Shown: positions 19,238-33,093 of the stretch, in pieces
How the letters are laid out: each line of letters starts with the position of its first letter
Numbering within the stretch: the stretch's first letter is position 1
From: Lojkania enalia
Lineage: Eukaryota; Ascomycota; Dothideomycetes; Pleosporales
Length of the DNA stretch: 64,000 nucleotides
Reading direction: 5' to 3'
Assembly: GCA_010094045.1 (NCBI GenBank)
Contig: ML986649.1
Span: 124,001-188,000 of the forward strand
The notes under the pieces: generated by a model
The model's input: only the letters and a program-made list of their open reading frames with translations
What the model was told of the DNA's origin: nothing
Databases searched by the model: none
Program-made: the position numbers and the translations under genes

Positions 19238-22200
19238 ACCTGCATTACTCGGCATAGTTGCTCCTTATTCCTTTTTTATTGTTGAAGGATTCACGACTGT
19301 CTTTTTTAGCGGGTTCGGCATTGGATTGGAATGGGGAATCAGGCATGGATACCAGGCGTTTTGGGGCTCTTGTAAGGGCAAATTGTCTTTTTGGGAATTG
19401 ATGATTGGGAACGCTAAGAGGCGTGAGGCGTCAGGATTTATTTTAGGCTCGGATGAGCTGGATATTTTTTTTCTTTTTTTTTTTTTTTTCGTCTTGGTGT
19501 TCACTCATTAGGAGAGCCCGCCGCGGTAGATAGCCGGCTGGGTAGTGTTGATGTTCAATCGACAATAAAAGATTAATAGCTTAGTCTTTTTTTTTATTTT
19601 GGCACGTGCATTTCTCTGTTCGCAAAACTACGAGAGGCGATTTTCTTAGAATCGTATCGCCAGTTCCCAGACGGATTCACAATCAAGACCTCGTCCAGCC
19701 CATCGTCATACATGATCAGGCCGGCCGTCCTACGTCACATCACTTCACATCCACATGCGCTGGGCGCCCTATTCCTCCCATGCCCTCTCGCCGGCGCCAC
19801 AAATACACAAACGCGCTCAGACATAATCCTGCCTAGCTTACCCAACCTACCAGCGGAACCACATATTTATACCCGTACTTACAAAGGCTAAGAGATCCTA
19901 TTCTCCTCCTCCGTTACCATGACACTCACTATTGGCCCGCCTACTTTAATGCTTTGCCTAGTCCCTCGTACGCCCGCATCCATTCTACAATACCGGAAGT
20001 GAGTGCGGAGTACCCGACTTTTCAAATCCAAACGGCAACCGCTTCTCAGACGGGTACTTTTCAGTTGCACAGGCATGTCGCTTCATTTCACGCAGATCGT
20101 CGACAGCCGGGGATGAAGTGGACATGGGTTTTCGAGCGGTGGATAGGGGCGTTAGTTTTGGGGCGGGAGGCGTGGTAAAGAGTGGTGGGGGTGTGTTGTG
20201 ACGAGAGGATCTAAGGGACGGTGATTATTGCAAGGAGATAGCTGCTAGGGTGCGTGGTTTGTGTAAGGGATTGTGTGGTCGGATGCAGAGGTCGATAGGC
20301 GTGCTCGACGTAGGCGTGCTTGACATAGGCACGCTTCCCAGCCCCGAGTACATAGCAGTGCTCGATGATGTCGCTGTCAAGACGCTACTGGCCGCAAACA
20401 TGCAAATGTGAGTGAGAAATTAGACCCCGCGTGCGCGCTGCAGATACGAGGCCCCCCTCTCCCTCCTTACATCTACATATTCTCCTAGAAGGATTGTGGA
20501 AGCTTTAGAAACGGTCTGAGTGGGATGGTGCTGAGGCGACGTGGTGGAGATGCGTATGGTTGGGACAGGAAGGGAGAGGGGGATGTGTGGGGTGGTTAGT
20601 GGTGGGTTAGTGGTGATTACGTTGCGGGAGGATGGGTTAGGTAAGGCATGGGGCGTTGCGCTATCTACTTAGGAGATTGGGGTAATATGGTAGATGTACC
20701 CACTTCCCTATCAAGGCAACCTTGCTTTTGATATTGAGAATAGGATAGATGGCGAAGGGAATCGCAATCGGCCCAGCGAGGCAAAGCGATTGCATCGCCG
20801 GTCGCAATCGCAATGCTTGCTACTACACATGTGTAACTGTGCGAGCGGCCCAAGCAGGGGCCGTGCCTTGCAGGGCACTTTGGCAAAACGTGTTGAGGTC
20901 GCGTGGTGTTGCTGCAGGGCGTGGCTTCGACGGGAATGCGGCATTTGCTCTCGCAACGAATGGCCATTCATCGCGAGCTGGGCAGCCAGCTGGTCTTGGT
21001 CCTGCACTGCAACTGGGAATAGCTAGCGGAACCTCCTTGCACCACCAAGAAGCCTTTCGAATTTCTCGTTCAGAGATAAGAGGGATGCTAGATGCGCGTG
21101 CGAACGGCCCCTAATTCATACGTACGGTTGGTCGGTATAGATGAGACAGTACGCTTTGATAGATATGTGAGAGTTGATTGTCCAAAGCCACAATCTTACT
21201 CACCATCTCTCGGAATTCCACCGCCTGCATATGCATGCATATAGCGCCGACACGCGGTCGCCGCGTTTTTAATCTACGCTTCGCTCATCCCGAAGGTTCT
21301 CACAGCTAGCCAAGTGCCGTTGAACCGGTTTAAGTGCCGAGTCTGTACGCACGCTAGTTGAGAGATATGTTCTCGGTGAAGGGTAATGGGATGATCTGGG
21401 CGCTCGGCTAACGTCAAGAATTGATGGAGGGTGAATGGCATGGCAATCTTTGTTCATCATTGCTGGATGGAGATGAGATGTGGTAAGCGGGATATTGGGT
21501 GCGGGCCTTGCGATTTTTATTTGCCATGGGGTCTAGGGGTTAGGGTAGCCGAGGCAGAAGTGCATGGTTTGGAGGTATTATATGGGTTTGCGTGTGATGG
21601 CGGGTTGATGATGAGAGGGGAGGGTGGTGCGGAATATGGGTGGATTTTGGGTTTGGGTTGGTCAGTGACCAGTCGCATTCGTGGAATGGATGGATAGAGG
21701 CGGTTATTTGGGAGGATATCCTTTCGGAACTCTTCGGGTTCTTCTGTGAAGTGGCTTGTGTTATCACTTCGAGGTAGCCTTGAGTGTCGATATGTTAAGA
21801 TTCATATAGTCTGACCGCAGCTACGGTCGCGTGGACTGTCGCTCTTCTCAATTCGTCCCGGAGGTTAGGGGAATAAAAATATCATGCGCTAGACTCACCT
21901 CTTATTAGTCGGAAGACATTAGGATGTGGGAAATGTTGGTATGATAGCAATTTGCATTTCCAATACCAAACGCCTAGATCACGAGCCCGCATCAGATACG
22001 CAGGATTCGTACGCTCAGGATAGCCTCGATACCCACCTTCAATTGCAAGTGGTGATTCTTGGAATAACTACGTCTAGTTGTCGTTGCAAGTAAAGCTTGG
22101 GGCTTGGTGGGGTACGAATAGGCTGACGCGTCCCAAGCGCAACACTTAGTTATCCCGGCGAGCATGAACGATGAACGAATAAGGGAGGAAAACATATCCG

Positions 22201-22300
22201 TTTTCTAATGTCAAATTTATTCTCAGATCATTTATGATGCAAATAAAGGATGAGAGGACGGGTGAAGGACTGTTAAAAGGTAGAATGTGTGGCTTCAGCC
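19238..22300. other. gene-free region
   Basis: No supported gene. A T-rich tract lies at about 19468-19490. A short tandem of about 15 bp (GTGCTCGACGTAGGC / GTGCTTGACATAGGC) lies at about 20299-20331. Open frames at 20694-21114 and 21431-21697 overlap antisense frames and have no domain. Confidence 0.35.
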
Positions 22301-25300
22301 ATTCAAAGGCCCAAGCATGTAAACGATACAAAAGTAAGGGATATAGGAAGTTGAAGAAAACTACAAAAAGATATTCACCATGACAGAACCCTTAATAAGC
22401 GAGCGATTCTAGTGATCAATATCCCCTAATCCACACATCAGTGCTGTCATTATTCTTATTTAGCATTTCGCACTAGAAATCTGTTATACGCCTATATTAT
22501 CGATTAGTAAAGACGTCTTCGAGTGATTCCTTTTTTTTTTTTTTTAAAGAAGAACTCATTCTAGTTCAAATGCTGCACAAGACTATAATGACTTAATGAT
22601 AGCCTCTTCCAATGAAGAATATTCTAGTTGAGAAATTTGTAGTAAGTGTGCAAAGCGTAATTGCAATCACTTTAATCATTTTAGGCAGCTATTAGTGGCT
22701 AAAAAGATGCCAAAAGCCGAGGATACGAGCTTTATGTATGTGAGCTTTTGAACTGTTTTAAAACTTCCAGAGTTCTTCCCACATAACCTGTGTAGCCTAG
22801 CTATACAGAATGTTCGAAACAGCGGAGTATCCCCTAACACGCCTAAGCATTGGCTCTTATGCTGGTCACATTGCTGCTAGACACTATACCCTTAGCCCTG
22901 TGATTGCATATAGCGTTTCGGTCGGCATTTTTCCATCACGATTCAGGATATTTCAAATGCGGGAAGGGAAATAATGCAGAAAAACTGCTTATAAGTGTTT
23001 ACGGACAGGTTGCACGCTTAATGGTCGATAGTTTTAGGGGAAAGTCTCCCTCAATTATGTCCTAGTATCTGTAGTATATCACGCTCTTAGTGAAATGATT
23101 ATCGCTCTCTGTTGACGATAATTAGTGTTACCTTTTGAATGCCATTCTTATGGTCTTATTTCTCACTGTCGGTCTGCTACACGCATGACGATATATTGAG
23201 ATGTATTCTCATAGTATAATATTCTCAAGCCTCAGTACAAGGGCTTCCTTCCAAGCAACCGTTTACAGCCCGGCATGCCGTTTTAGTTGTAATGTATTCT
23301 ATTTTCTTTCCCCTGGCTTTCTTACAGTGTCTGGAACATATTTGCGGCTGTTTTGCACGCTAGCAATAGGCCAATTTAGGGTTATCTTTCGCTTCTTAGC
23401 TTTTTAAACATTGAACACAGGCCAATATGTGAGGATTTTGCTGCTAAGATATTTGTTGTTTGGATGAAATGGAGAATTTTTGTCATGCGAATTGCTAGTA
23501 GAGGATTTCGCTGGACTCTGTGCGATCGTTTCCTCGAAGAGATATTGAAATCCTTTCTGGTTAGAGCAAACCTCTGTTATACATTCTACAATGTAGAATG
23601 ATCGAATGAAACGGCACTCCTGACATCATTCCAACATCCTAATATCTAGAATCTCCCGTTATTTATGGCCTACTATGACTTTTTGTATCGCTAGCGCATC
23701 ATAACGTCCGAATCCTCTCAGTTATATTAATCTTGCGCAAGACATAAGTTTCTCTTAAGTTCTGAGGATAATAACATTTTTCGCCGCTCTATAGTCTTGT
23801 AAATCCTCCCTTCATGCCGAATTCATGCGCTTGCTGGTATCGGAATTTCTATTCGGCTAAAATCAAATTCTTAATTTATCTTCCCTGTACAGAATGTGGG
23901 CATAACGACTGGAGTCGTAGGCTCAATGGCCACAGCCATTCAAGTAAGTAGAGTAGATTTTGGAAATGGGTTTCACGAGTTCCTCGTACCTGTTCGTGGG
24001 TTTTTGAAGGCTAGTAGCCACGCGGTCGTTTTTTGGTTTTTTTGAACGATATTGCTCTCATGCTCTATCAATGGATTCTTATTTGCTTAACTTGTAACAA
24101 ACCGACCCTGGCATATGCGAGATTTCCAAATTGTCAAGTAAATGCTCATCATTACCTCTCGGATTAAATTTACCCACGTACGGACCAGACAAACAGTCAT
24201 TATTATGTTGCCCAAGAATTCTAATTACTTCATAACGCATTATAAAACTCAGTTCTAGCTCTTTTATCGCCATAATACAGCCCATCTCAGATTTTGGACC
24301 TTTTAGTTAGGAAATAGGCTATATGTGGACAGGTGGTGGAGAGCACGGCAGTTATCCTCGAGTTTCTCTCTTGGTTATTTCAACGGAGAGTTCTACTTGA
24401 CTGCAGGTTGTTAATTCTTGAAATTCTTCATTCTTGCGTATAGATTTAGCGTTTGCATCTTTTAGGGGGTTTAGACTTACTATGCCTAGGAGATAGGCTC
24501 TTGTTGGTCCACGCCGTATATTGCATCAATGAAAGAGCATTCAGCGATAGAAAGCTATAAAAAGTCGTAAATTTCAGGCTTTCGAATGAGTATATTGCAA
24601 TGGTTGGTTTTATTCCATCTTTGGTTCTAGTACACTGACCAAGTGTGCATGTGTACGCTCAGTCTTAATTCTTAACTCGATAGATGTATAATATAGTAGA
24701 TCCTCGGTTTTTGTGTAACACGTGACCAACAAATGAATAATCTCTGAAGCCTGAATCAACAGCAATTATTATGCTCCATTTTTATTCCTAGCCACATCTT
24801 ATAGGCCAGGTTATAGGCTTTATTTCCATGAGTCTCTAGGTGTGTAAATTAATTCCTGCGCATGATCGTAGCCTTATATTTCCTCCCTATATAAATATAA
24901 GTCATCAAGTTTTATTTTATCTATACGAGCGTATACTCGCAAATTTTTAGTGAAATGACAATACCGTAGTTAGGGGAAAACAGATGTATACCAATTGAGA
25001 TTTCAGTATTAGGCTTGGCTGTCATCAAGTTGGAGCAGTATATTTCTTTTAATGATAAAACTATGCACTATTATAGAACTTGGTTGATTAATGGCCTGTT
25101 GCATCCAATATATCTTCTCAAAGTGGAGAGAACAGCTTTCCATTAATAATGGGAGAGCACTACAGGCGTGAGAAGTAGTGTTGGCCGTTTCCATTTGGAA
25201 CAGTAATGTAGATGAATAGTCGTGCGCTCGATGACATCGTGCTTCTAGTTGTTTACATTTGCCACATAACGGCATTCTTTCCCCTTATACTTTGATATAA

Positions 25301-26650
25301 TGATAATTGTTAAGCTAGTCTTTGGATTGTCCATCAACTAGGCACCAGACATATCTCAACGCCTGTTCCGTGGCACGCGTTGTCGTGTGCTTAGCTTTTA
25401 GTTCACGCTGCACAATGCAGGCGTAGTCCTCGAGAAAAACCTAGCGAGTCCGGCATGCAAGATAGGGCTGGTCTATGCTCAATAGTTGTGCGGCACATCG
25501 ACCTTGCGTAGTGTTTTTCATTAACATATGCATCGCCTAATCTATAGTCTTCTTATCGTTAGGAGACTTGGTGGCGCGCCGTGAATACTCTTCTTGTAGG
25601 GTACGCCATTTTCTTTCTTTTTGATAAGGCTCTCATCCCTCGATAATGCTAGTAGCTGATTATAAAGTTCTCAGGGATAGCGGGCCAGTGACACTGCTAT
25701 TAATATATATATCGTACCATTTTAGAGATTTTACCTGCGCACAGTCTCCAAATCTCCATTGGATTTCGAATGAATTATCCAAATGGCATGAGTCATATTA
25801 AGTTTATTTTTGGTACAGCTAAGCTATGCCATCATAACGCTCGATCTTTTTTTTTTTAGTATCTTGATATACAGGTCATGACTCTTAATTGATGGCTAAT
25901 CCATGTTTTAAGTTTAAGGCCGTTCTTGGAAAACAATCGATAAGAACATGTCTCAATGCTCTTCTGTGGCGTTCTGTAGTTTTCCATCGATTCCCGGAAG
26001 TAATGCGCATCTTGCTCTGACTAGAAGAAATATAGAATGCTTCGTAGATTGATGTGGAACACAGATACTTGGGCCCATATCCTAGTTTCCATCTCCTTTT
26101 TAGAATAACAAATCTCTAGAAACATTGGAGAATAAATTTAAATAGAAGCAAGGCTTTTTAACTTACGTCCCTCAAAATCTTATAGAGACAAGTGAATGGA
26201 ACTTTGACTAATACTTCCAGAATGTTACCCCAATCGAACATGATTTAGTTGGGCATAGTTTTAGTTGAAGACAAGTATCTCAATGATATTTTCAAGGTAC
26301 AACGGGAGTATAACCTAAAAGAAGTATCAAAAGGTATTGTTTCCCCAAAATCCGTACGGTTTGTGAGATTTTCTAGAGAAAAGGTGAACACATGATCACG
26401 ATAGGCCGTTCTTCGCGCCACGGTCCATATTTCAAATCGAAAGTCGGTTTTAGTAGTAAGCAAGCTCCTATATGCAGTGAATTAGAATGCACTAGGAAAA
26501 TTATCACCAAGGGAAAGTGTTTAGATACCAAATAATGCCCGTCCGTAATGATTACTAGCGGAGTAAGGTAAACAGCGGATGCCATGTTCGAGTCAAGGAG
26601 GAATTGTTAGATATCAGCATTCCCGTAAAGCACTTTATAGTTCCCTTTGA
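22301..26650. other. AT-rich gene-free region
   Basis: A 4.3-kb tract with only short open frames. TTTTAG words recur on the plus strand (for example 23029, 23281, 24302, 24463, 25388, 26258, 26437), more often than CTAAAA. No gene, RNA gene or transposon end was recognised. It resembles the mutation-worn AT-rich blocks of fungal genomes. Confidence 0.35.
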
Positions 26651-26930
26651 AGCATTGAGGTCTTTTAAGTGCCACAATGAACATATAGTTCCGGCGCTCC
26701 AGGTTTAGTACCAAAAGACATGGCACGCTACCAAGTGACTTTGACGTTGGAGAGCACGCGTTACTTCAATACGATCCAAGTGGAGAAAGGGACATATTAC
26801 TACCTTTGTGTTTATTTTAGTGCCAGAAGAGACATGGACCGTGTCGATTGTGTTTCTTTCAGTGCCAGGAAGCACATGGACGAAAGCTTATTGTTTTTAG
26901 TGCCAAAGTCATTGCAGCTATGCCGTTGCT
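26650..26930. repeat. short decayed tandem array, about 40-bp rhythm, TTTTAGTGCCA box
   Basis: The box TTTTAGTGCCAGAAGACATGG and variants recurs with AGTGCC/AGTACC at about 26668, 26707, 26819, 26861 and 26899; weaker AAGTGAC/AAGTGGA copies at 26734 and 26779 fill the gap, giving steps near 40. Read on the minus strand the box is CCATGTCTTCTGGCACTAAAA, which closely resembles the CATGT...CTCTAAAA units at 10.8-12.5 kb. The two fields therefore look like one repeat family in opposite orientations. Confidence 0.6.
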
Positions 26931-27734
26931 ATCTAAACCTTTATTAATAGATAAAATTGAACTCCGTGTATGGAGAAAAGGGAAAGGGACGTGGTGAAAA
27001 GAGGGGTTTATATATTCCTGTTGCGAACCTTGAAAGTACTTAAGCCGAGCGTCAAGTGCGAGGACTTTCCTTCCCATTAATTCCTTTAGAGGGGCGGGCA
27101 TCAGAAAGCAAGACGTGTGACTAACATCACGAAATTCAATATTACCAACTCACTAAACCAACTACAAGCTAGATCTTGGCATAAGGAATGGAATGCGTAT
27201 CTATAATCTCGCTTAGTATTTGAAACCCAGGCCTTCGTCGAGTCTTTGAAAACACGAACTAGATCGAAGTGATTACATATAAAAACTAGAGCATTACTTA
27301 AGAAATGTTGAGAAGTTATGATGTAGTTTCCCCTACATAACACATTCAGGTGAGTATTCTAGGCGTACCCTCGGGCTTTTGCCGGTTTTAGGATGCATAT
27401 TATACGCTTTGCTATTAATAAATCTGATTATTAAATTGAATTCGTCGGAATAAGATGGCCAGAAATGAAACAAATACTAGGTATCACGGCTGCTGCCAAA
27501 TGACAGAAAGTATCACAGAAGCAGAAAATCACGCCACGGTGCATTAACATACTCGAATATGGCCTTCCGTCTAATGTTCACATGACAACACCAAAAATGA
27601 GAAGATTGATTCGCATCGTTGTATTCTGTTCTATTTTATAAAATCCAAATACGCTACCTATATACTAGGATATCATACTAACAAAGAAATTAATTCGTGC
27701 CCGCACGTTGCTACTTCTGCCCACTTTCGTACCT
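26931..27734. other. intergenic region 3' of the dioxygenase fusion gene
   Basis: No gene supported; AT-rich with short chance frames. It should contain the 3' untranslated region and polyadenylation signals of the minus-strand gene ending at 27735. Confidence 0.35.
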
Positions 27735-30700
27735 TCATACCCTGGCCTGCACCTGCTGGAACATCCTTTCATCTCCACTCGCATTTGCCGCCAATTTCAA
27801 CGCCCTCAGACCCGCGGGAACAGCGGGCATCGTGCTCGCCGCTGTTGCAGCCGCAGGTGCTAAGGGCGGAACAGGGGGTACCTCCTTATCAAGGCTCAGT
27901 TTACTCCGGGAACCATAAGACTTAATAGAACCGACGGAGCTCAAGGCCAATGAGGCTCGGGGTGACGCAGGGAGTGGCGTATGGCTTCGGGGGGGCTGGC
28001 GGCGGTTTAGGTGGGCCATTGCTGCGTTCGCGATCGATGGGGTGGCTATGGGATTATACTGAGTTTGTGGAAGCATTTCGGAAGGAGCTGATGAGGGTTG
28101 ACGACGATGAAATTGGGGCTCGAGTGGTGCGGTTTGTGCGCGTGTTCGTAGCGGAAGAGGCGCTGGGAGAGGTTCTGCTTGTACTGGTGAAGTTCGCATC
28201 CGTTGAAGCTGTGAACTAGTGCTTGATGTTGAGCTGGGTGCCTTAGCGCTATATTGAGAAGCGGTGTCTTCGGCTTGCAAGTGTTTGCCGTATGTTGCCA
28301 TCAACTGTGCAAAGTCGTATTCGGCGGGTAAGCGACTCAGGCGACGGATTGTCGACATGTTCTCGTTGATGAAAGCGGACATACGACGGATTGCGCTTCC
28401 TTGTTGTTGAATCTCGAATGTGGAAGGCGCTTGGGTATTTTTGGCTGCCCGGGTAGTGTGCATATCTGCTAGTCGACGTGGTTGAGATGGCTCATAATCC
28501 TGCTGCGACGAGACATTTTGGGCGTTGAGTTGCAAGGTTTGCTGTGCGTTCGCAAAGATCTGGGCAAAATCGACTTCAACACCATTCTGTCGCGGCCGTA
28601 GCCCGGTGGACATGCCATCGCTAGCAGCCATGTTGGGCGGCTTTGCAAGAACGAAGAACGATCCGTCCGAAATTTTACGGCGGACATTGTTCCATCGCGT
28701 ACGTGCAGGATTGTTCTCTATCTCAGGACGGTAGATTGATTCTTGAGAGAGCGAAGCATAATAACTTTCCAAGCGAGCAGCAATACGTTCGAGCACTGAA
28801 AGGAGATATGAGGCGAGCTTGACCTGGGAAATTTTATCAGGAGCTGAAATAGAATAATAATCAAGGCTGATTACCTGTTTTGAGCTTGTTGATTCATCCA
28901 TATTCGCGACAAGATCAAATGCATCCATGCCCAATGCAGCCTCATCGCGAATTTGCTCGAGGAACTTTACATCAAGTTCCGTGACGGACTGCGCGTACTT
29001 CAAGATACCATTCTCATGGAATCTAGCGGATCGACTCGTCGCACTGACGAATTGACCGATTTCGGAAACTTCTTTCATGGCTTTGGTGGCATCCGGAGAC
29101 GACTGAGCTCGGGTGATGGTGCCGACGATGTCAGGAAGGCGGACATTTGGAGCAACGGCATTTGCGATGGAGAATGTCAACTTGAGATATAATTCTTGAA
29201 GCTTGGCCTACTGAGTGTTAGCAAGAATACTGTCTGTAACCATACGAGTGAGATACTCACGCCGAACAAGCTCGAGAACCCGCTCTGCATTAAGCGGCTC
29301 TGGAACTGGTAGAACTTTCTGACACCACCGATATTGAACAGCCCACCTGAGAACCACACTTTTGAGTCTTCAAGAATATTGTTGGCTTCGAAGTACAGGG
29401 TTGTTAGGCTCTCTACACTAGTTCGTAGATACTGTAGCCACCTGTCGTATATATAGCTCATTTCTTCGTTCCTGAAATCGGGCTTCTGTGCAAGATGGCC
29501 GATGAAGTATTTGGACAGGAGACTAGAGACTTCGGGATTGCTGGTGTGAGCGAGGTCATCGAAAGTCTTTGTCGCATCCAGACCAGCACTAGCTGCTACG
29601 ATGAGGGTTCCGCCTGGGTGCATTGGCAAAAAGTCTGAGATGCCACTGTTAGACTCTTATTACTTTCGAGAGGTGAGAAACCTTACCTGTCACATCGTAT
29701 ACGCCTCCGTGTACACCAATCCACATTCGCGACCCCTTCCGATGACCTGTGTGAGCGGCAAGCTTGGACATGGGGATTGTGGGTGTGGTATTGGAGATTG
29801 CTCGAGGAGTCATGAAGATATCTGCAACATGAATTAGCACAGCTATCAACTTTGTGAACGTATAAACTTACCAAGCATGAACCTGCGTTCCGCGAAAGCT
29901 GTTGCCAAGAGAGCATCCGCTGTTGAGTGTGTCGAAGCTTGGTATTTGTAGATAGCTTGTTTAATTCCGGACATAACTGTCTCGTACACCGATACGGAAC
30001 CGCAGATATAAAGGTAGCCACCAAGTCCACCCTGACTCTTTGACATTACCAGCTCGGACACTAGGCGACCCTGTTCAAGGATTGTAGCATCGATGTACCG
30101 TGGGTCCATGTCTTGTTCAACGAGATCTCGCAGAGCAGGGTCGTAGAGAAGCCCATTGCGGTCTCTGGAGAATGCCGTATGCAACTCGAGTGAGCCTTGC
30201 TGGACAAGGCCCCGAAGCTCTGCCTCGTGGACAAATTTCTCGCGGGATTGAACGCCGAGAAAGAGAATATTGCGCCCAATGCCCGTTTCAGTCCTCGCCT
30301 GCCAGAAGCCTCTAAATGGAGCGATACCAGAGCCACCAGCAAACATAGCTACCGGAACGGTTGAAGAAGGCGGTAGCTGAAATTGAATCGGCCGCGAGAC
30401 ACCAATCAAGACGGCGTCATCATCAGCAGCATCGCAAGGGAAATCCATCCGCTGAGGCGCAGGATTCAGGAAGCCGCTCGACACGCCATACAATGGGAAG
30501 GATGGCTGAACTGATCGGAATGCCGGATCACGGGCGGTTTCCGTACGTGATACAGTTAGATCTATGGTCGAAGGCAGCAACTCATGCGAAGAGTTCGAGA
30601 TGCTGTAGGTGCGAGGAACTTCGAGACTGATCAGTTTCGGAAGCCATGCGAGATTATACAAATCAAACGCGTGGTCCCAGATGTCCTGCGGTACTTCTGC

Positions 30701-33093
30701 AATGGCAGCCTGTAGAAGGTCACCTAAGCTACCTTTAATCGGCCATTCATCCGCCGCGAGGATCCTGAGAATAGTTTGAGATGAGGCTCGAAGAGTTTGA
30801 TGCACCTAATTCCGGGTTAGATGAAGGTCAAAAGATATAGAATAACAATTCTGAAAGGGAATGGCATACCGATACAATAAGCTCTTTCGTTAAAGGAGCC
30901 AAATGGCCTCGCTTAAGAACGTCCTTGACTTTGAGCCCAGCACTCGGCGCTTTGGAAATGATTTCCATATGTTTCGAGAATCGTGCCCATTCCGATCCTT
31001 GTTCAACAGGAACAATAGCTTCCATCATATCTTCCAAGCCCAGTGCAGCTGCAACCTTAGTGGTCTCATACGACGCATTGATCGGCATAACCGCAAGACG
31101 GTCTCCTGGCTGGAAAGTGATACCTGTGTTTTGAATGTCGAAAGTGATCATGCCAGTGGAACGATTAGGATCAGAGTCGATTGTCTGCCTGTCCATGATG
31201 CGGGCCTGGAATCGGCATTCTTCAAAGCTCCCTCGCATTTGATGGGGCTGGACTTTGACTTCGCCTCGGTAGGGGTCTAGGCGTTCGCGCATAGAATCAG
31301 ACAAGGTGCGATGCACTTCCTCCCATGGCCTGCCCTCGCCATCTCCTGCTCCTGCATTACCATTCGTCTCGGTGCGACCTGTCTTGGCAACAACCTCGAG
31401 GAAACCGTACACCTTGTCTGGATGAGGTTAGCCTCAGAGCTTGTCTGATAGAAAATGGCAAACAGCTTACATCGGTGCGTCCCCATGAACCCTCGCTCAC
31501 CAGCATACGATTCAATTAAACCCTCCAAGACTCCTTGTAACCTCGGATCACCACTCGCCTTGATAAATTCCGGAACACGGTAGTGATTCTCGATAGCGGC
31601 AATAAAAGCGCGAATATTGAGCGGCAACCATCGACGAAGGTGAACTGCTTCGACGCCAAGAAATGATGTGTATTTTGTCCTTCCGATGAAAGCATCCATG
31701 AGGAGGAACAAAGGTAAAGCAAGACCGGATAGCGCAGGTACGCGTTTTGACAATGGCGCGCTGAACTTGGCGTATCGTTGACCCCACTAGAATATGTTAG
31801 TGATTGTACCGCTCAAGGACGGTCAATATACCTCGACAGGATTGGCGAACTGTTCGCCTGCATTAGGATTGACACTAATTTTGTGAAATACATATGGTAG
31901 TTGGTCGATGATGGATTTAAGCCCAATCATTTCTCGAAGTAGAGCATCATTATCACGGTTCATGACAGCTTCCTGGCATCTTGTAACTAGAAACGCTTAG
32001 TACATTAACCCAAACTTTCGGGACCGAAAATACTGACCTGCTTCGATACCATTTTGGAAGCAGCCATGCACTTCGGCCATACATAGTAGAAACATGGCCT
32101 CACCACGATCATTAAATACCTAAATGATAAGCTTTCATCTGAGATGATAGAGAATTTGTAAGTCATACCGGCCATCTGAGGTCCATATTCTCCGTCCTCG
32201 CCAGGTATGGTACCACGCTTGTCGGATCCCGGAGCTTATAGTTGTAGATGCTTACATCGAACTGTGTAAGATGTGGTAGAGCTCGACCCATGCGGGTGCA
32301 AACTTGTCGAAGAGGTATCGCGATGTTTCTTGGAATGCCTTTCGTCTCCTCTTCCTCGTCATCCGCCTCGCCAGAGATATTTCGGAAAGCTCCGGGGGGT
32401 GCAACAACGCTGACGCCCTCATTACCATCGTTCCTCTCTTCGTATCGATAGACGCTTGCAAGGATACCAAGGCAAACTGTTGCCGCCCAGAGAGCTCGAT
32501 CTGGTATCATATCCGGCGTTCCATGAACCAACGGAAGGGCGAGAATGGAGTTCCGCACATTGCCTCTGGCGACGACGCCAGGCATCCGCTCGCAAAGGTC
32601 TGACCATATCCTACCGGGTGATGCTCGCAATGCAACTGGGGAGTCTGACGGATCCGGTGGAAGGAAGCCGTATGCTGAACTCAAATATCCATCCTTCCAT
32701 CCAGTTCGAGGCCCAATTTCCTCCGCTCGCATAAGGACACGACGGGCCGGAGCTCCAAGAGCGACTGCCAATACATCATCGTCCTCGGGGTTTAGAACGT
32801 CTGCGTTCTTCAGTCCATTAGTGACTTCGCGAGAAGGGGCATCCGGCATTAGCATTTCATTCAAAGCTTTACGCTCTTTCTCGTGAAGAGTGTTGGTATC
32901 ATCTGAGCCCTGCAATACTTAGCTACACTCTATTACTAAGAAGAACACTTACATCAGAATAAACTGTCGGCGCTCCTAAATTTGGTTGAAAAGCAGCAAA
33001 AGCGCAACCCCGAGGTCCTACCCGTCCCGCTGGACAACCCGCACCGTTCACCGATCCACTCCTACCACTAACAGGGCAAGCCCTTACGGACAT
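27735..33093 (-). CDS. indoleamine 2,3-dioxygenase-like / FAD-NADPH reductase / cytochrome b5 fusion
   Basis: Minus-strand exons 32953-33093, 32169-32909, 32038-32119, 31832-31986, 31471-31786, 30870-31417, 29872-30805, 29687-29821, 29261-29634, 28875-29207 and 27735-28823 keep frame throughout; about 1615 residues. Residues about 60-485 are IDO-like: YGFLPPDPSDSP, RAL..A, IPRNIAIPLRQV, DAFIG, FLGVEAVHLRRWLPLNIRAF, then GTHRYKVYGF with H477 at the proximal heme-His position. About 500-970 is a ferredoxin/P450-reductase-type FAD and NADPH module: PGDRLAVMP, RTYS (726-729, FAD), GVSSGFL, GGSGIAPFRGF (about 818, NADPH), YICG. No FMN flavodoxin domain is present. About 985-1065 is cytochrome b5 (HPGG with H1023, second His in DDLAHTS). 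The remaining 550 residues are helical, then disordered Ser/Pro/Ala-rich. The 51-nt last intron (28824-28874) is in frame and could be retained (1632 residues). No signal peptide. Likely role: an O2-dependent heme dioxygenase with its own electron supply; the substrate is unknown. Confidence 0.9.

Follow-up and report, generated by a model that had tools for sequence, protein, structure and literature searches.

Within a 64,000-nucleotide (nt) stretch of the genome of the fungus Lojkania enalia (assembly GCA_010094045.1, contig ML986649.1, positions 124,001 to 188,000; hereafter the window), a single gene on the minus strand encodes a predicted four-domain fusion chain, in which an IDO-like domain is followed by flavin adenine dinucleotide (FAD)- and NAD-binding domains and by a cytochrome b5. 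We consider it likely that this single chain is a self-sufficient heme oxygenase, combining the IDO-like domain with an FAD-NADPH reductase of the cytochrome P450 reductase (CPR) or sulfite reductase (SiR) type and with cytochrome b5. Its substrate would probably be an aromatic or indole-like compound other than free L-tryptophan. All coordinates given below are those of the window.

A single gene joining an IDO-like domain, a reductase and cytochrome b5

The gene starts with an ATG at 33093 and its stop codon ends at 27735. The splice model comprises 11 exons and 10 introns of 43-64 nt, all of them GT..AG, and translates without interruption into 1615 residues. The predicted product is 100% identical, over its 1615 residues, to a deposited protein (P0001, 'hypothetical protein CC78DRAFT_499454 [Lojkania enalia]'), which bears out the claim of a first-pass annotation of the window that the gene is continuous and splice-consistent. 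The end of the IDO domain and the start of the FAD domain are both located within exon 31417-30870, and the end of the reductase and the start of b5 within exon 29821-29687; as both junctions sit inside single exons, the fusion does not depend on any guessed intron at a seam.

A Pfam-A search of the product placed IDO at residues 123-359 (E 3e-14; 53.1 bits, the curated cut-off being 26), inside the interval 60-485 that had been named beforehand, FAD_binding_1 at 547-623 (3e-11), NAD_binding_1 at 815-868 (4e-6) and Cyt-b5 at 992-1065 (4e-15), all above their curated cut-offs. The three parts proposed by the first-pass annotation (IDO-like domain, P450-reductase-type FAD-NADPH module and cytochrome b5) are thus present with their predicted ligands and catalytic residues retained, and the motifs that it had singled out were located: GTHRYKVYGF (with His477), RTYS, GGSGIAPFRGF, HPGG (with His1023) and the second b5 histidine, His1047. 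The features of the gene, all on the minus strand, are as follows.

27735..33093, minus: whole gene, 11 exons, 10 introns, 1615 amino acids (aa) (splice model; identity to P0001)
33004..33078, minus: N-terminal CP..CP..GPRGC segment, residues 6-30 (33073-33078, 33031-33036 and 33004-33018; conserved pattern)
31263..32801, minus: IDO-fold heme domain, residues about 84-530, spanning introns 2-5 (Pfam; P0094 model)
31475..31477, minus: codon of His477, predicted proximal heme ligand (alignment)
31323..31331, minus: RPW, residues 508-510, in place of the canonical GTGGT lid (one MAFFT alignment)
29805..31235, minus: CPR/SiR-type FAD-NADPH reductase, residues about 540-978, spanning introns 6-7 (Pfam; PDB profiles; P0033 model)
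30602..30613, minus: RTYS, residues 726-729, predicted FAD binding (109/109 homologues)
30161..30169, minus: SRD, residues 874-876, of the NADPH 2'-phosphate type (109/109 homologues)
29814..29875, minus: LDIF, residues 972-975, end of the reductase, spanning intron 7 (alignment)
29489..29777, minus: cytochrome b5, residues about 988-1066, spanning intron 8 (Pfam E 4e-15; axial His pair)
28647..29461, minus: conserved C-terminal helical region, residues about 1076-1312, spanning introns 9-10 (conservation)
27738..28646, minus: low-conservation tail including RRLS 1413-1416 at 28335-28346 (alignment)

The structure models used throughout are those of relatives (P0094 for IDO and P0033 for the reductase), the whole chain of the window protein being too long to fold. 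Pfam, PDB profile matches, structure matches (P0033 with the SiR flavoprotein and with the FAD domain of P450 BM3) and conservation agree on an FAD-NADPH domain that has the catalytic residues of diflavin reductases. SRD would confer specificity for NADPH, and at the end of the reductase D973 and F975 of LDIF are each found in 109/109 homologues. The flavin mononucleotide (FMN) domain of diflavin reductases was not detected: Flavodoxin_1 was absent from the 29 family members scanned with Pfam (E 0.001), and none of the 6 flavodoxin matches in the genome is located on the contig of the window (C72). As for b5, its axial histidines are kept in 108/109 (His1023, with one gap) and 109/109 (His1047) of the aligned homologues. 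Two identities proposed by names in the databases were rejected for the whole protein. NCBIfam sulfite reductase models score far under their cut-off on the reductase region (best 82.2 bits vs 432), and likeness to nitric-oxide synthase (NOS) is confined to the reductase half, Pfam giving no NOS oxygenase domain.

We found 314 homologues; the counts given here use the 120 listed, and the alignment the 109 of these that reach 1390 aa or more. All four Pfam labels are present in 105 of the 120, and hence their co-occurrence goes beyond chance; in the scan of 29 relatives, IDO, FAD_binding_1 and Cyt-b5 were each found in 29 and NAD_binding_1 in 28. The listed sequences come from Pezizomycotina as well as from the Basidiomycota Rhizoctonia, Marasmius, Mycena and Serendipita, and from the chytrid Gaertneriomyces. 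Many of the deposits are misnamed, as sulfite reductase flavoprotein or as 'related to nitric-oxide synthase, salivary gland'.

The domains have descended together as one unit. In segment trees covering 106 of the 109 aligned homologues, the IDO and the reductase-b5 trees have 27 splits in common at support of at least 0.95, with no conflict, and the corresponding distances correlate at 0.916, a value that 0 of 999 permutations equalled. The IDO and C-terminal trees likewise share 28 splits without conflict. Mean pairwise distances are 0.32 for the IDO domain and 0.35 for the reductase. When midpoint-rooted, the tree separates two groups of 44 and 62 sequences, and each group has a member from several of the same species, among them Lentithecium fluviatile, Amniculicola lignicola and Periconia macrospinosa. 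No second copy of the fusion was found in the L. enalia genome, the other 6/14 matches being short and located in b5 or flavoprotein parts. Among 69 matches of 331-1053 aa there are short ones carrying the IDO label only, such as P0122 (453 aa, 86% identical); being so close in sequence, they are provisionally taken as gene pieces of the fusion family, in a search for stand-alone relatives that relies on shared words, is limited in length and could miss some. A pattern scan of genome contigs for prokaryote relatives gave one locus, in a metagenome-assembled genome of Chlamydiae (L026:2001-3053), 24% identical to residues 563-975 of the reductase and with the IDO part unmatched.

Two regions flank the catalytic core. 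The N-terminal CP..CP..GPRGC segment resembles heme-regulatory Cys-Pro motifs and is a possible candidate for such a role; GP[RLK]GC occurs within the first 80 aa in 80/108 M-starting models, preceded by two CP in 66 of them, by one in 8 and by none in 6. Beyond b5 the chain extends for about 550 residues, of which those from about 1076 to 1312 are conserved and mostly helical in the P0033 model. No Pfam family was assigned to this region in the 29 members scanned (E 0.001), and all the matches listed for the fold search with P0033 come from the reductase part, no b5 chain being among them. In the otherwise poorly conserved tail, S1416 is found in 107/109 homologues and the exact RRLS in 93/109, a candidate site for a basophilic kinase.

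The IDO-like domain and its altered pocket

The P0094 model matches IDO2/IDO1 over about 350 residues at about 20% identity. His477, which is a histidine in 104/104 fusion domains, aligns with the canonical proximal histidine (His346 of IDO1) both by MAFFT and by HHalign, and the domain is predicted to bind heme with this residue as a ligand.

The predicted pocket is a different matter. We compared the fusion domains with fungal IDO-alpha, using as a yardstick the best-listed 120 of 2126 matches, a narrow set in that each is at least 63% identical to one IDO-alpha. Pocket residues carry their IDO1 numbers, and the equivalences come from alignments. The equivalents of Phe163, Ser167, Phe226, Arg231, Gly262, Ser263 and His346 are each present in 120/120 fungal IDO-alpha. 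At the Ser167 position, serine is found in 0/104 fusion domains (Cys 60, Met 42, Val 2). GTGGT, present in 119/120 IDO-alpha, is likewise found in 0/104, being replaced in the MAFFT alignment by R/K-P-W (R 92, P 94 and W 102 of the 104). The segment from Phe226 to Arg231 is shorter in the fusion family, where R377 (95/104) is a possible counterpart of the arginine in an alignment that is ambiguous at this point. Retained positions include Phe304 (102/104) and Ser393 (103/104).

The kinship to fungal IDO-alpha is not close on these 120 sequences: the best of them reaches 14.6 bits against the IDO domain of the window protein, and four other members of the family give 11.9 to 21.9 bits. Human IDO1 scores 43.6 bits against the window protein, above any of the 120. 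Because the pocket residues diverge and the domain is remote from IDO-alpha, a different substrate appears likely; with the signature of the tryptophan site gone, free L-tryptophan is an improbable one.

IDO searches revealed at least two further IDO-type genes in the genome, on contig C58 and, as a weaker match, on C56. The IDO exons on C58 are 100% identical to the L. enalia deposit P0184, an IDO-alpha. Taking into account that separate IDO-type genes exist, a canonical IDO-alpha among them, ordinary tryptophan breakdown would not need the fusion. The gene on C56 (G000:C56:226620-227947; L004, L005) is divergent, with FRWRHW at the histidine and a TGGS-like motif. In a comparison with the IDO-gamma/bacterial group, made with the open-frame pieces of this gene, the best score is 2.2 bits against the fusion-family profile; the gene is possibly an IDO-gamma, an identity that is a guess.

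Proposed electron route and alternative readings

At the level of sequence, an oxygenase-type heme domain and an NADPH reductase are found in one chain. In the route that we propose, FAD in the reductase domain would take electrons from NADPH and hand them on one at a time to the b5 heme, from which they would reach the IDO heme; once reduced, the latter could bind O2 and oxygenate the substrate. Cytochrome b5 would thereby take the role that the FMN domain has in P450 reductase and nitric-oxide synthase.

IDO requires ferrous heme. According to an older review (PMC4191572), cytochrome b5 has been suggested as the reductant, and a 2026 preprint (PMC13142367) reports that human IDO1 is supported in vitro by P450 reductase, with or without b5, the use in vivo being unclear. 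To call b5 with a flavin reductase the known cellular donor, as the first-pass annotation did, is thus too strong. The fungal fusion unites the same three kinds of partner: IDO, a P450-reductase-type flavoprotein and cytochrome b5. No description of an IDO-reductase-b5 fusion was found among the papers listed in searches of the open PMC literature, most subscription papers being outside it; a Blastomyces genome paper has, in its accessible part, a subject other than the fusion. The gene is not unique to this genome, having been deposited many times under misleading names.

Some observations weigh against a self-sufficient oxygenase. The differences at the tryptophan site make even oxygenase chemistry uncertain, and PrnB, a relative with the IDO fold, indicates that the reaction is not fixed by the fold (PMC11791213). 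Of the 120 listed homologues, 15 have an incomplete set of the four Pfam labels (11/15 are under 1390 aa), and the reductase-b5 and C-terminal trees have 3 conflicting pairs besides 28 common splits. A self-sufficient oxygenase is still the best reading, and this part of the earlier proposal of a self-sufficient dioxygenase stands; the reading as a tryptophan dioxygenase is unsupported, given the 0/104 counts for Ser at the Ser167 position and for GTGGT.

The alternative that survives best, although we hold it unlikely, is precisely that of an ordinary tryptophan 2,3-dioxygenase, yielding N-formylkynurenine, with its own reductase and b5. It is opposed by these same two absences, by the shortening of the Phe226-Arg231 segment in the alignment and by the distance of the domain from fungal IDO-alpha (14.6 bits for the best of 120).

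Somewhat less probable is that the reduced IDO heme acts as a nitric oxide (NO) dioxygenase, a source of NO or an O2 reductase, with no organic substrate being oxygenated. The layout of heme plus FAD/NADPH is like that of NOS and flavohemoglobin, some deposits carry the salivary gland NOS name, and the structure matches include the neuronal NOS (nNOS) reductase. The NOS likeness, however, stops at the reductase half, and Pfam detects neither a NOS oxygenase nor a globin domain in the window protein and the 29 members.

We give little credit to the notion that reductase and b5 are the working half, supplying desaturases or P450s, with the IDO domain as a sensor of heme, O2 or a ligand that gates it. 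The N-terminal Cys-Pro motifs and the RRLS of the tail suggest regulation, and the loss of the tryptophan-site signature would fit as well; but the IDO domain, its predicted proximal histidine included, is about as conserved as the reductase (0.32 vs 0.35), and no clear membrane anchor is seen: among 19-residue stretches, the one of highest hydrophobicity (389-407, mean 1.92) lies inside the IDO domain. Lastly, that the model wrongly merges two neighboring genes is already nearly refuted by the single-exon junctions, the recurrence of the four labels in 105 of 120 homologues and the congruent IDO and reductase-b5 trees, even if the deposited homologues are themselves gene predictions.

Returning to the self-sufficient heme oxygenase, we give about even chances to a broader proposal: that the family is a fungus-wide, unnamed class of such enzymes, in which b5 has taken over from the FMN domain found in the P450-reductase/NOS design and serves an IDO-fold heme that has shifted to a new substrate, as a natural fusion of IDO, P450-reductase-type flavoprotein and b5, the partners debated for animal IDO. 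One gene uniting those kinds of partner and kept across many fungi speaks indirectly, on genetic grounds, for such a pairing, and offers a single protein in which it could be measured. If the electron route is true, the self-sufficient heme enzymes would gain a design without FMN, in which electrons go from FAD through b5 to the oxygenase heme, and the substrate could open a fungal pathway now masked by sulfite reductase or nitric-oxide synthase names.

Genomic surroundings and comparison with known systems

Ten neighboring open frames were scanned, 7 of which gave Pfam matches: TAF2 and its M1-like part, a mitochondrial carrier, a hydantoinase, a cytosine/purine-type permease, a P450 and HET. 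This content does not suggest a tryptophan gene cluster. Between 38462 and 44233, a hydantoinase/oxoprolinase gene adjoins the cytosine/purine-type permease, near the mitochondrial carrier, perhaps as a small group for hydantoin or purine breakdown. On the 3' side of the fusion gene, about 5 kb (22000-27000) have a lower GC content (0.40). Of two indices of repeat-induced point mutation (RIP), TpA/ApT is somewhat raised there (0.92 vs 0.78 in the window) and the other is average (1.20 vs 1.22); no second copy of the stretch was found, and there is no clear sign of a RIP or repeat origin.

Compared with IDO itself (PF01231; human IDO1/IDO2 and fungal IDO-alpha), the fusion has the IDO fold over about 350 residues, as modeled for a relative, and a histidine at the proximal position; it differs by its identity of about 20%, by the absence of Ser at the Ser167 position and of GTGGT, and by carrying its own reductase and b5. 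With CPR, the sulfite reductase flavoprotein and the NOS reductase it shares an FAD/NADPH half with RTYS, SRD, Cys, Asp and a terminal aromatic residue. Unlike these diflavin reductases, it has no detected FMN flavodoxin domain, and cytochrome b5 follows directly after the reductase.

P450 BM3 (CYP102A1), NOS and flavohemoglobin are self-sufficient, each having a heme domain and an NADPH reductase in one chain. The fusion, as known from sequence, shares this arrangement, but its heme domain has the IDO fold, not that of P450, NOS or globin, and a b5 heme is found where P450 BM3 and NOS have FMN. PrnB and other histidine-ligated heme-dependent aromatic oxygenases are alike in having the fold of the IDO/TDO (tryptophan dioxygenase) superfamily, a His-ligated heme (a predicted one in the fusion) and divergent pockets and reactions; their named members come from natural-product pathways, and a fused reductase goes unmentioned in the accessible text (PMC11791213). 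As the superfamily includes reactions other than tryptophan oxidation, that of PrnB for example, a new substrate in the IDO fold of the fusion would have a precedent.

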